From Candidatus Poribacteria bacterium (GTDB lineage Bacteria; Poribacteria; WGA-4E; UBA9662), in assembly GCA_002709695.1 (NCBI GenBank), contig PAQF01000086.1:70516-134515 (forward strand): 64,000 bases of DNA. Reading direction: 5' to 3'. The position numbers and the translations under genes were made by a program. The notes beneath the pieces are model-generated. The model was not told the origin of the DNA, did not search any database, and was given only the letters and a program-made list of their open reading frames with translations. Below, piece after piece: positions 28,108 to 32,011 of this stretch (positions within the stretch are counted from its first letter, which is position 1; each line of letters begins with the position of its first letter).

Positions 28108-29001
28108 TCATCGTCTTTGCGAGTTTCTATGTGTTTTCCCTTTGCTGCTAAATCTTTCGCCGCATTTTAACAAACAGTAATTTTGCTTTTGTTCCTTTGC
28201 TTCAGCTAAAAACAGATCCGGTGAAACTGTATTGAATTCGAACATCTCATAATGGCATGGAATGACCAACTTAGCCCCGATTTGTTGAGCTAACCAGACC
28301 GCTTGGGAGCCATCCAAGTTACCGGACACTCGACGGGAAGGATCAGCCCCGTTAATTGGTAAGATCGCCAAATCTATCTCCCACCTCTTTAGTTGAGTAA
28401 CCATCCCATCGTATAGCATTGTATCACCGCTATGGTAAATTGTCCATTCCCCGAATTGAAACACGTAGCCGAGAAAATGATGTCGCCCGTTTGCATCGGT
28501 TTCCAGCGTTTCATGTGCTGCAGGAACGCCACTGATTACAATATCAGCGATTGTCATGCTCTTTCCTGCATCAGATCCGATTAGTGACTTAGTATCAACC
28601 TGCAATCGATCTGCAGCGAAGTTACGGTTTGCTGCCGGCACGACAATTTTCATTTTTTGGTTCACATCCATCAATGGAATCAAGGTGTCTGCGTCTAGGT
28701 GGTCCGTGTGGTTATGGCTGGAAGTCACCACATCAACAAAATCCAGTTGAGTAGGATCAATAATTATCTCTGTCATCCGGATATGAGGCTTGTCAGTATC
28801 GGCGTATTTTCTTGTCAACGAGTTAGATAAATAAGGATCTATTAGTAAGTGCCGTGAGCTAGTTGAATTTCCTTTTGCTCTATTCCACTGAATTAAGTAA
28901 CCACTTTGGCCGAGCCACCACAGGTTAAAATGCCCATTTTCCCTGGGAGATTCTTTGATGCTAGCCAGAAATTGATTGTCCATTAAGACAGGTTTAATCA
29001 T
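28108..29001 (-). CDS. Metallo-beta-lactamase-fold hydrolase, UlaG-like
   Basis: 297 residues. The zinc site SHNHTDHLD (HxHxDH) is near residue 95, with further ligand segments AAHET, HSGDTMLYDG and PCHYEMF. The layout resembles UlaG, the L-ascorbate-6-phosphate lactonase, and related carbohydrate lactonases. The start is ATG 29001, overlapping the stop of the barrel gene by eight bases, or ATG 28983; neither has a strong ribosome-binding site. Substrate not determined. Confidence 0.85.
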   Translation of the reverse strand: MIKPVLMDNQFLASIKESPRENGHFNLWWLGQSGYLIQWNRAKGNSTSSRHLLIDPYLSNSLTRKYADTDKPHIRMTEIIIDPTQLDFVDVVTSSHNHTDHLDADTLIPLMDVNQKMKIVVPAANRNFAADRLQVDTKSLIGSDAGKSMTIADIVISGVPAAHETLETDANGRHHFLGYVFQFGEWTIYHSGDTMLYDGMVTQLKRWEIDLAILPINGADPSRRVSGNLDGSQAVWLAQQIGAKLVIPCHYEMFEFNTVSPDLFLAEAKEQKQNYCLLKCGERFSSKGKTHRNSQRR

Positions 29002-30145
29002 AGGTTAATTTGATTGAAATAATGTTGTGATAGTAATTCAAAAAATCAAGAATTTTGGATTTTTCGTTGATACGATTTTTTACCAATTGATATCCGAGAA
29101 GCAAAGAAAACTTATTAGCCAACTTACGAGACATTAGGAAGTCAATTCCAATTTGCTGATTTATTCTACTTTGCGATTGGCTTTGAAAGATAGTTTTTCG
29201 GTTTTTAAAATTGAGTTGAAGTGCGGACAAGCGTAATTTAAACCAATGGCCATCAGCCATTCGATAGAAGCCAGTACCGCCAAATTCAAAGCTAACAAAA
29301 TCGTAAAATGATGTATTGGAATTGTTCTGAAAAAAGTTGATATCTTCTTGAATAATGATTTGATCTGTTGGAATTTGTATCAGTCGAGTTGTAAAAAGGT
29401 GTTTCCAATCGGTACGGAGATTTCCTGGACTGATTTTGGCAATTCCGAGTACCAAGTTATTCAGGTTGTCTTTATAACGTTGATGCTCAACTTGGTATTC
29501 AAACCGGCCTAAAAGGTTTTTCAGAATTCCAAATTGTAATTGCCAAATACCCAATTGTGAACGAGACCCTACAAGCAGAAAATCTTCTCGACGAGTCTGA
29601 TCATCATCAAAGCTCCTAAATCGAAGATGATATTTGAACACTTTACCGAACTGAAAACCGATTTGGTTTTCAACGTAATCGTAAACATCATCTTCTCGAT
29701 TAAGTCGCTGAATCTGGTGTTGGAAACGAAGACGTGGCAACTGATCGCTTAATCGGAGTATAAATTCTGTCGAGAAAGTGTTATTGAAACCATTAAAATT
29801 ATCAAGTTTATCATCTCTTCCAATGTAATCTTCCAATTGTGTTTTGAGCTGCGTTTTAACATCGAGAAGCTGACTGATGGGAAAAATACCTTGCAGATCT
29901 ATTCTTGCCTGATTAATAAGGCTTTGTATTTGTGGGACTCGACGCCCTGAAAGACTACTGGTATTTGGATCAATACTCAAACCAAACTCAATGTGATTGT
30001 CATAGGTGCTATTTGTTTGGAATTTGACCTTGATATTCTGCTGTTTGGCCTTGATATTCTGCTGCAAGTGTGGAAAGGAAGACAATTGTGCTAATGAAGT
30101 AAATGGAAAGGCCAGAAGAAAGAAAAAAAATAGAAAGGGAGGCAT
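28994..30145 (-). CDS. Outer-membrane beta-barrel-like protein of unknown function
   Basis: 383 residues from ATG 30145, which begins a clear signal peptide (MPPFLFFFFLLAFPFTSLAQ). The longer frame starting at 30247 would overlap the small lipoprotein gene and hide the signal. The mature part is a run of alternating amphipathic strands (for example FEFGGTGFYRM, WFKLRLSALQLNF, LLLGYQLVKN) ending IISIKLTYD, as expected for a barrel of roughly 16 strands. A short direct repeat near the N-terminus codes QQNIK twice. No named family recognised. Confidence 0.65.
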   Translation of the reverse strand: MPPFLFFFFLLAFPFTSLAQLSSFPHLQQNIKAKQQNIKVKFQTNSTYDNHIEFGLSIDPNTSSLSGRRVPQIQSLINQARIDLQGIFPISQLLDVKTQLKTQLEDYIGRDDKLDNFNGFNNTFSTEFILRLSDQLPRLRFQHQIQRLNREDDVYDYVENQIGFQFGKVFKYHLRFRSFDDDQTRREDFLLVGSRSQLGIWQLQFGILKNLLGRFEYQVEHQRYKDNLNNLVLGIAKISPGNLRTDWKHLFTTRLIQIPTDQIIIQEDINFFQNNSNTSFYDFVSFEFGGTGFYRMADGHWFKLRLSALQLNFKNRKTIFQSQSQSRINQQIGIDFLMSRKLANKFSLLLGYQLVKNRINEKSKILDFLNYYHNIISIKLTYD

Positions 30146-30158
30146 AGTTGTAATCCAA

Positions 30159-30383
30159 TTAATAAATTGTGCAAACGCCGTTGGCACAACTACTACCAGG
30201 TTTTTTCGTAATATCTCCAGAATTCTTCTTTCCCTCATTAAAATCAAATTCAGTTAAGATGGCCGGCGCTTCTGTTACAGAACCGGACAGATCAAGTTGA
30301 AGTTGTTCGTTTTGTGTAAAGTGTGCTGAACAACCTCCCATACTAATGATTCCGCCTACTAGGATAACCCAAAAAAAATTCAT
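30159..30383 (-). CDS. Small lipoprotein with C-terminal CxxxxC tail
   Basis: 74 residues. Signal with lipobox: MNFFWVILVGGIISMGGC. The rest is polar and ends SSCANGVCTIY, a conserved-looking Cys-x4-Cys tail. Its ATG overlaps the TGA of the TlpA-like thioredoxin gene, so the two are translationally coupled. A plausible role is as a partner or substrate of the redox proteins encoded just upstream; this is inference. Family not recognised. Confidence 0.7.
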   Translation of the reverse strand: MNFFWVILVGGIISMGGCSAHFTQNEQLQLDLSGSVTEAPAILTEFDFNEGKKNSGDITKKPGSSCANGVCTIY

Positions 30384-30892
30384 AGCAGTTTTTTTAATTC
30401 ATTCTCGTAAATCGGTTTTTCTAGTTGCTCGCCAATAAACGTTTTACGGATTTTACCTGACTGGTCAATCAGCACTGCGGTTGGAATCGCAACAATATTG
30501 TATTTGTCCATTAGGTCCGGTTCGCCCAAGAGGATCGTATAGTTTACACCTAGTTTCTTAATAAAAGGATTCACTGCCTTAAGACGTTCGCTATCGATCG
30601 AAATGCCAACCATCTCAAATCCTTGATCGTGATATTGATCATACAGGTCAATAAAGATTGGAATTTCTTCTTGACATGATTTGCACCATGTAGCCCAAAA
30701 ATCAAGGAGAACGATTTTTCCTCGGTAGTGAGATAAACTTACCTGCTTAAAGTCTGTGCTAAGCAAGGTGAAATCTGGTGCAGTGGAAGAATTCGAGTCT
30801 TGGATAGCATTATTGGGATTACCAACGTTGTTAGTTTCGTTTGAACAACAAATGGAACAACAAAATAAGGCGATAAGAACGAACTCTCTCAG
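30380..30892 (-). CDS. TlpA-like thioredoxin-fold membrane-anchored protein, probable CTG start
   Basis: Thiol-disulfide oxidoreductase with active site WATWCKSCQEE and cis-Pro segment VAIPTAVL. The family N-terminus (APDFTL) lies upstream of any ATG, GTG or TTG that could start it; the frame is open back to a TAG at 30914-30916. CTG 30892 is preceded by AAGGAG with an 8-base gap, and yields a hydrophobic Cys-rich signal (LREFVLIALFCCSICC) and 170 residues. A TTG at 30764-30766 would cut into the domain and has no ribosome-binding site. Probably lipid-anchored, though the lipobox is atypical. Second gene of the operon, 30 bases after the selenoprotein gene. Confidence 0.85.
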   Translation of the reverse strand: MREFVLIALFCCSICCSNETNNVGNPNNAIQDSNSSTAPDFTLLSTDFKQVSLSHYRGKIVLLDFWATWCKSCQEEIPIFIDLYDQYHDQGFEMVGISIDSERLKAVNPFIKKLGVNYTILLGEPDLMDKYNIVAIPTAVLIDQSGKIRKTFIGEQLEKPIYENELKKLL

Positions 30893-30922: not shown

Positions 30923-32011
30923 TTACTGGGCTAACCGAATTGCCTTAAGCAAGTCATCAATCTTCGGTAAATCATCAGGATTAATGCTACTGTGCGTGGA
31001 ACGCCAACGAATAATGCCCTGCTTATCAACAATGAAAAAGGATACCTTGGAAAATCTGCCAAAGTCTAAAACATTGTAATCCTGAATTGTCTTTGCTGTT
31101 GGATCCGATAGAGAAAAATATTTCAGTTTATGTTGCTGATGAATCTTCTTGTTTTCGGCTACAGATTCATGGCTAATGGCAACGATTTCAGCTTTGAGTT
31201 CTGAAATTTTATTATAATTTCCTTGTAGCAGCTGTACCAGCTGCGGTAGGCATACAGGTCACAACTTACCACGGTGAAAAGTAAGAAGGACAGTTTGTTT
31301 GCTGGTGAAGTCTTTCAAAGCTACAATTTTGCCATCCACGTTAGATAGTGAGAAATTGGGAGCTAAATCTCCTAATTGTGAGCCGACATCAACTTTCTGT
31401 TCTGTTTCTTTGAGACTTATTTGTAGATCTTTTGTTTCGCCTTTTCCAATTGGTTCAACTGTAACTTGGAATTCAATCTTTCCATCTGCAAGGATTGTCA
31501 ATACCAACTCAACTTTGGGGGGTAATTGATTAAAAGAAAAAGCACCAAATTTATCTGTTTGAATTGTAAATTCATTACTAGGTGCAGAAACCGTAATTGA
31601 TGCATTTTCTATAAATGCACCTGCAGAGTCTATGACGATTCCCCGTATTGACGCCATCAGGGGAACAAGTTGAAAATTCTTTATAGCGACTTCTTTGTCA
31701 AGTAGAATAGCACTGGCTTCAGATGCTACGCGGTATCCCTCTGCAATAACGATGATATCGTAGTCTCCAAATTCCAGATAGGGAAAAATATATCTTCCAT
31801 TCTCGTCCGGATAGGTGGTTGCAATAATATTACCGGCCTGCATTAGTCGAATTTCAGTGGCAGCATCAGTTGGTTTTAGAAGACCTTCAATTTTGCCAAG
31901 TTGGGGTTGGGTTTCGTTTCTTGCGTCGTCTTCACAGCCATTAATAATGATAATTAGAGAAGCTGCTGTAAAGAAAATTAGGTTTTGAAGAAAAGGCATT
32001 TTATCTCTCAT
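30923..32011 (-). CDS. Selenocysteine-containing peroxiredoxin-like lipoprotein (in-frame TGA at 31259-31261)
   Basis: About 362 residues when the TGA is read as Sec (residue 251). Lipoprotein signal with lipobox IINGC, two carboxypeptidase-regulatory-like (Ig) domains (about residues 38-110 and 115-195), then an AhpC/TSA domain starting GDLAPNFSLSNVDG. The strand LLTFHRGKL runs into TGA, then PVCLPQLVQLLQ in the same frame, so TGA takes the first Cys position of the family RGxWCPxC motif (UxxC). The frame continues through VAISHES, YFSLSDPTAKTIQDYNV and SFFIVDKQGIIRWR to TAA at 30923-30925, a complete peroxiredoxin. Start may be ATG 32011, ATG 32050 or TTG 32062; the first gives the best signal. 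Confidence 0.88.
31228..31244 (-). promoter_or_regulatory. Bacterial SECIS-like hairpin
   Basis: A perfect 7-bp stem, GCAGCTG / CAGCTGC on the minus strand, with loop GTA (or GGTAC if the top pair opens). It starts 14 bases after the TGA, so its loop is about 21 bases downstream. Bacterial SECIS elements are expected about 16-37 bases after the UGA with a G early in the loop; both hold. A lower CCU/AGG pairing can extend it. Confidence 0.75.

Follow-up and report, generated by a model that had tools for sequence, protein, structure and literature searches.

We found that a gene at 30923-32011 on the minus strand of the window, the 64-kb stretch of Poribacteria DNA analysed here, almost certainly encodes a selenoprotein with a peroxiredoxin (Prx) fold, in which an in-frame UGA is decoded as selenocysteine (Sec), and which is probably an envelope-anchored reductase. 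On this strand it reads from 32011 to 30923. When 32062-30923 is translated with TGA as U, it is one continuous frame that contains a lone TGA (31259-31261) and closes at a TAA (30925-30923), which is followed by AAAAGGAG ahead of the next gene. The protein reads ...TVLLTFHRGKL-U-PVCLPQLVQLLQ... around the TGA (HRGKL-U-PVCLPQLVQL) and ends in ...IRLAQ*. ATG codons at 32011 and 31999 are both plausible starts; from the former, the product has 362 residues including Sec251. The initial annotation, made from the sequence alone, had placed the TGA at the first Cys of a CxxC motif and had read about 110 more residues up to a TAA beside the next gene. Both statements were borne out, with HRGKL-U-PVC at the site, on the minus strand, and 111 residues after it.

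The protein starts with a putative signal peptide (31940-32011, minus strand), which is modelled as a helix at residues 5-23 and ends in a lipobox-like motif. This motif is imperfect, being INGC in the window gene and VSGC in the same-genus genome G001. The putative lipid-anchor residue Cys24 is at least 90% conserved (alignment A1), and from its sequence the protein is probably exported to the envelope and lipid-anchored. Pfam also agreed with the initial annotation on two regulatory domains followed by an AhpC/TSA domain. Two CarboxypepD_reg beta-sandwich domains (31412-31909, minus strand; PF13620 in two stretches, 6e-17), which are present in 29 of the 30 homologues tested, precede an AhpC/TSA (Prx-like) domain (30926-31390, minus strand; PF00578, 3.7e-23, over the cut-off). 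The latter match spans the TGA, so that the domain includes a U-P-V-C active site composed of Sec251 and Cys254, and its assignment agrees with sequence and fold matches in the PDB.

The genome containing the window (G000) is 96% complete and has the Sec machinery. It contains SelB, a tRNA-Sec (70.6 bits, anticodon tca) that follows the SelB match at a distance of about 0.4 kb, full-length SelA (514 bits) and SelD (L012, G000:C48; 360 bits). The selD gene has its own in-frame TGA (TCGUAAK) and SelD is therefore itself a selenoprotein; UxxK is given as the Sec motif of SelD (PMC13188914). Thus, all four genes that the initial annotation had proposed to look for, selA, selB, selC and selD, were found in the source genome.

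Homologues were searched for in 146 genomes, of which 131 gave matches, and 90 loci were then read in all six frames. The query carried Cys at the site, so that homologues with Sec were not favoured. Nearly every good match in Poribacteria has exactly one TGA. A TGA was found at the same column in 102 Prx-like domains, all of them with UxxC (102/102); 101 were from Poribacteria genomes and one (L085, in G128) was from another phylum. A Cys codon in relatives, which the initial annotation had suggested seeking, was found at the Sec column in two homologues only, both in G082 (RGYWCPVC and RGLFCPYC), and more distant peroxiredoxins have Thr there. Full-length SelA, SelB and tRNA-Sec were searched for in G082 and none was found, although this absence is uncertain since the genome is only 61% complete. 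None of the three was found in G074 (95% complete) either, and its sole Prx-domain match is weak. SelB and tRNA-Sec in the incomplete genome G002, and full-length SelA in the incomplete genome G021, were not found, yet both genomes keep TGA genes. The homologue from the other phylum, NRGFMUPHC, is Prx-like with UxxC. SelA, SelB and tRNA-Sec are all present in its genome, and within its aligned stretch nothing of a CarboxypepD_reg part was seen.

In G001, the gene has the same TGA and is 82% identical to the window gene. Protein identity between G000 and G001 is 80% in the 110 codons before the TGA and 89% in the 110 codons after it, and dN/dS is about 0.23 before and about 0.30 after. The initial annotation had considered that homologues might be unrelated in sequence after this point, which is not what this pair shows. 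The nearest named relative of the protein, 81% identical, is from a Candidatus Poribacteria MAG, and a plasmid search for relatives gave weak Bcp/redoxin matches only.

Taken with the machinery, the TGA column shared by 102 homologues and the two Cys homologues indicate that the UGA is almost certainly read as Sec. Two other explanations of the TGA were considered. Standard ORF calling stops the gene at this codon, as a true termination, a pseudogene, a frameshift or a sequencing error with a truncated Prx domain would have it. However, the TGA is shared by an independent assembly of the same genus and by 102 homologues, and the frame, the active site and purifying selection persist up to the TAA. 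We therefore rejected truncation, the probability of which is very small. Alternatively, UGA might be reassigned throughout the genome to another amino acid such as Trp, Gly or Cys, and the frame that is open across the TGA would fit this as well. On the other hand, five neighbouring genes stop at TGA (26899, 28108, 30380, 34268 and 37163). Since TGA is the normal stop of at least these five, UGA is not simply reassigned. There are four read-through candidates within the 64 kb, but only one has homology support; another one is two adjacent genes in the same frame, and two have no recognisable domain as judged by eye. These observations and the complete Sec machinery make genome-wide reassignment so improbable as to be negligible, and it was also rejected.

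The Sec reading is also consistent with a SECIS hairpin at 31228-31244 (minus strand). As the initial annotation had described, a perfect 7-bp hairpin with a G-first loop, GCAGCUG-GUA-CAGCUGC, starts after exactly 14 bases past the TGA; counted from the first base after the TGA, one arm occupies bases 15-21 and the other bases 25-31. As an Rfam scan of the 64-kb window found nothing, we turned to a comparative test of the hairpin. The single-sequence fold of the region is unremarkable (z -1.1), and the significance of the hairpin thus comes from comparison across homologues. All seven pairs form at the +14 offset in 76% of the 102 genes, and at any other offset in 14% at most. Among 97 distinct genes, 74 have 7/7 pairs and the mean is 6.73, whereas synonymous recodings of the same peptides gave a mean of 4.17 ± 0.10 with a maximum of 4.51 in 1,000 runs; minimum-energy z-scores, taken gene by gene, average -2.7. 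The excess was retained after thinning: 41 representatives with less than 70% identity have 6.63 pairs against 4.26 ± 0.16 in recodings, and 10 representatives with less than 50% identity have 6.5 against 4.33 (sd 0.32). Of the 97 distinct genes, 95 have G as the first base of the loop.

In a covariation analysis of 35 sequences, 22 compensatory cells were found, against 6.6 ± 2.5 in shuffles (0/500), and slid controls gave at most 5 cells. The covarying pair types are A-U/G-C, C-G/U-A and C-G/G-C. Since shuffling leaves relatedness in place, the slid controls are important here, as is the synonymous test on the thinned sets. Between G000 and G001, one C-G pair is compensated to U-A, synonymously on both arms. 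The two Cys homologues of G082 encode a similar peptide (QLEELQ and QLAEIQ) and have lost the hairpin (5/7 and 4/7 pairs). The bacterial SECIS that the initial annotation had wanted checked therefore covaries and exceeds synonymous recodings. This gene set, in which either arm shows compensatory changes that are synonymous, provides unusually clean natural data on the minimal bacterial SECIS.

An AlphaFold model built from the family alignment has a mean pLDDT of 88, and its C-terminal domain resembles the Bcp and AhpE peroxiredoxins (TM 0.84-0.89 on target). Sequence matches in the PDB are Prx/Bcp and ResA, and none is named as a Sec relative. When aligned to solved Prx structures, Sec251 falls on the Thr of PxxxTxxC and Cys254 on the peroxidatic Cys, which makes the site a UxxC of the thioredoxin-like kind, carried by a Prx fold. 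The name peroxiredoxin in the initial annotation thus holds for the fold, but not for the site, since UxxC is not the TxxU of classical Sec-Prx. Because Sec replaces the Thr of the Prx motif, peroxidase activity is not readable from the sequence.

The gene immediately downstream, a candidate redox partner, encodes a TlpA/thioredoxin-like protein with WCKSC (30380-30892, minus strand; Pfam AhpC-TSA 1e-27, Thioredoxin_8 1.5e-17) and a hydrophobic, lipoprotein-like N-terminus. Thirteen genomes from three families retain such a neighbour, and G000 also contains a DsbD_TM match. From the UxxC on a Prx fold, the kept neighbour and the DsbD-type transporter, we infer a lipid-anchored Sec reductase recycled by a TlpA-like partner. 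It would work as follows: SelB with Sec-tRNA(UCA) would bind the mRNA hairpin just past the UGA (31261-31259) and insert Sec251, yielding a 362-residue product in which a signal peptide and lipid anchor and two CarboxypepD_reg spacers precede the Prx-fold domain with U-P-V-C. Sec251 would act as a reactive selenolate that reduces peroxide or an oxidised thiol, and would then pair with Cys254 as a selenenylsulfide. The adjacent TlpA-like protein may re-reduce this bond and may itself be supplied across the inner membrane by the DsbD-type transporter of the genome. As far as sequence can indicate function, it is reasonably probable that the protein is an envelope Sec-dependent peroxide/thiol-disulfide reductase with a TlpA-like partner.

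The protein might instead be an envelope thiol:disulfide reductase or isomerase that does not act on peroxides. The thioredoxin-like UxxC, the TlpA-like neighbour and the literature name Prx-like thiol:disulfide oxidoreductase (PMC13188914) argue for this possibility, which we regard as tentative because the sequence and fold are closer to peroxiredoxins than to TlpA/ResA. That same closeness, with Bcp and the 1-Cys Prx AhpE as the top fold matches and Cys254 aligned with the peroxidatic Cys of solved Prx structures, could also mean a true peroxiredoxin in which Cys254 is peroxidatic and Sec251 resolving. In this protein, however, Sec stands where PxxxTxxC has its Thr, and the Pro is not retained (HRGKL). 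Moreover, the attacking group is usually the selenolate, and a resolving role of Sec251 is therefore rather unlikely.

The TlpA-like partner proposed for the envelope Sec reductase is not universal, because genomes of family f3 either lack the gene or have two or three tandem Sec paralogues in its place; the redox partner may therefore vary among Poribacteria families. Three UxxC Sec-Prx genes in a row were seen at L060 (G007:C12) and L062 (G017:C117), and pairs in many other f3 genomes. In the TlpA-like gene, the hydrophobic N-terminus is not preceded by any ATG, GTG or TTG; the probable start is a CTG (30892-30890) after AAAGGAG, which is kept in G001. The next gene after the redox pair encodes an outer-membrane-like protein with no Pfam match (28994-30247, minus strand), and a gene resembling it by eye seems to follow in L046.

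Prx-like selenoproteins with UXXC in place of TXXU were reported in a survey of the Sargasso Sea (PMC1088965) and are listed in later reviews (PMC9312934; PMC13188914 Table 1). Since it has been published since 2005, the UxxC Prx-like family is not new. By the rule of the 2022 review, the window protein belongs to this family because it has the same domain and the same Sec motif. It shares PF00578, UxxC for TxxC/TxxU and a SECIS just downstream with the known Prx-like thiol:disulfide oxidoreductase selenoproteins (UxxC/UxxU). Its placement among them is by domain and motif. It differs from them in its N-terminal part, where a putative lipobox is followed by two CarboxypepD_reg domains ahead of the Prx domain, and in its amplification and near-fixation of Sec within Poribacteria. 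The Sec peroxiredoxins with TxxU (PF00578) have the Prx fold and Sec in common with it, but here Sec lies three residues earlier and Cys occupies the peroxidatic position, giving HRGKLUPVC and not PxxxTxxU. The peroxiredoxin-like family protein cd02970 with UxxS (PMC13188914 Table 1), of which Poribacteria contain a UPNS relative, also has a Prx-like domain and Sec first in its motif, whereas the second active-site residue of the window protein is Cys. The TlpA/ResA thiol-disulfide oxidoreductases are exported, as it probably is, and likewise have an AhpC/TSA-type domain with two redox residues (xxxC); the adjacent gene is TlpA-like. However, the window protein fits the peroxiredoxin fold better and has Sec for the first Cys. 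No NCBIfam model reaches its cut-off on the window protein. The best match, the SelL-related redox protein NF040769, scores 47 bits, far below the curated cut-off of 120, and the protein is therefore not a member.

The statement of the initial annotation that this is not a standard annotated family thus applies to the lipoprotein/CarboxypepD_reg architecture, but not to the UxxC Prx-like family, which is catalogued (PMC1088965, PMC13188914). In the literature searched, outside which most subscription journals lie, we found no description of the CarboxypepD_reg fusion, the near-fixed Sec or the amplification in Poribacteria, and no paper on Poribacteria with selenoproteins or with peroxiredoxins. 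The lipid-anchored, CarboxypepD_reg-fused architecture, the near-fixation of Sec and the spread and amplification across Poribacteria appear to be new.

A survey of more than 5,200 bacteria in 2016 counted only 32 Prx-like thiol:disulfide oxidoreductase selenoproteins (PMC5029168), against about a hundred UxxC genes in one phylum here. Organisms have been classed as selenoprotein-rich from six selenoproteins upwards (PMC5029168), and among the matches listed, the near-complete or complete genomes G015 and G011 each have at least six TGA-bearing genes of the Prx type. It is likely that Poribacteria are an unrecognised selenoprotein-rich phylum with an envelope antioxidant system derived from amplified Sec Prx-fold proteins. 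These would comprise the lipid-anchored CarboxypepD_reg-Prx(UxxC) proteins, often in tandem and sharing one minimal SECIS as the standard of the phylum (7 bp, a loop of 3 nt, constant offset), UxxS Prx-like proteins and a two-Sec fused peroxiredoxin. Because standard annotation would cut such genes at UGA and lose the active site, a major part of the redox and selenium biology of this uncultured phylum stays hidden. The gene set also offers a testable case of putatively envelope-anchored selenoproteins.

The two-Sec peroxiredoxin was seen in G000 as one ORF (L106, G000:C26:165957-170811, minus strand) that fuses two AhpC/TSA domains and contains two TGAs in frame. The motifs are DFTGGU and DMTPGU or DFGRGU, each domain having a TxxU or GxxU-like site. 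It was also present in 14 of 14 further Poribacteria genomes (L108-L121), which were chosen by paired search hits, and hairpins recur after its TGAs. This conserved two-domain, two-Sec peroxiredoxin appears to be new. In a further Prx-like family, RGTWUPNS (UxxS; L122-L132), ten genomes have TGA and G046 has Cys; its hairpin does not occupy the position seen in the UxxC family.
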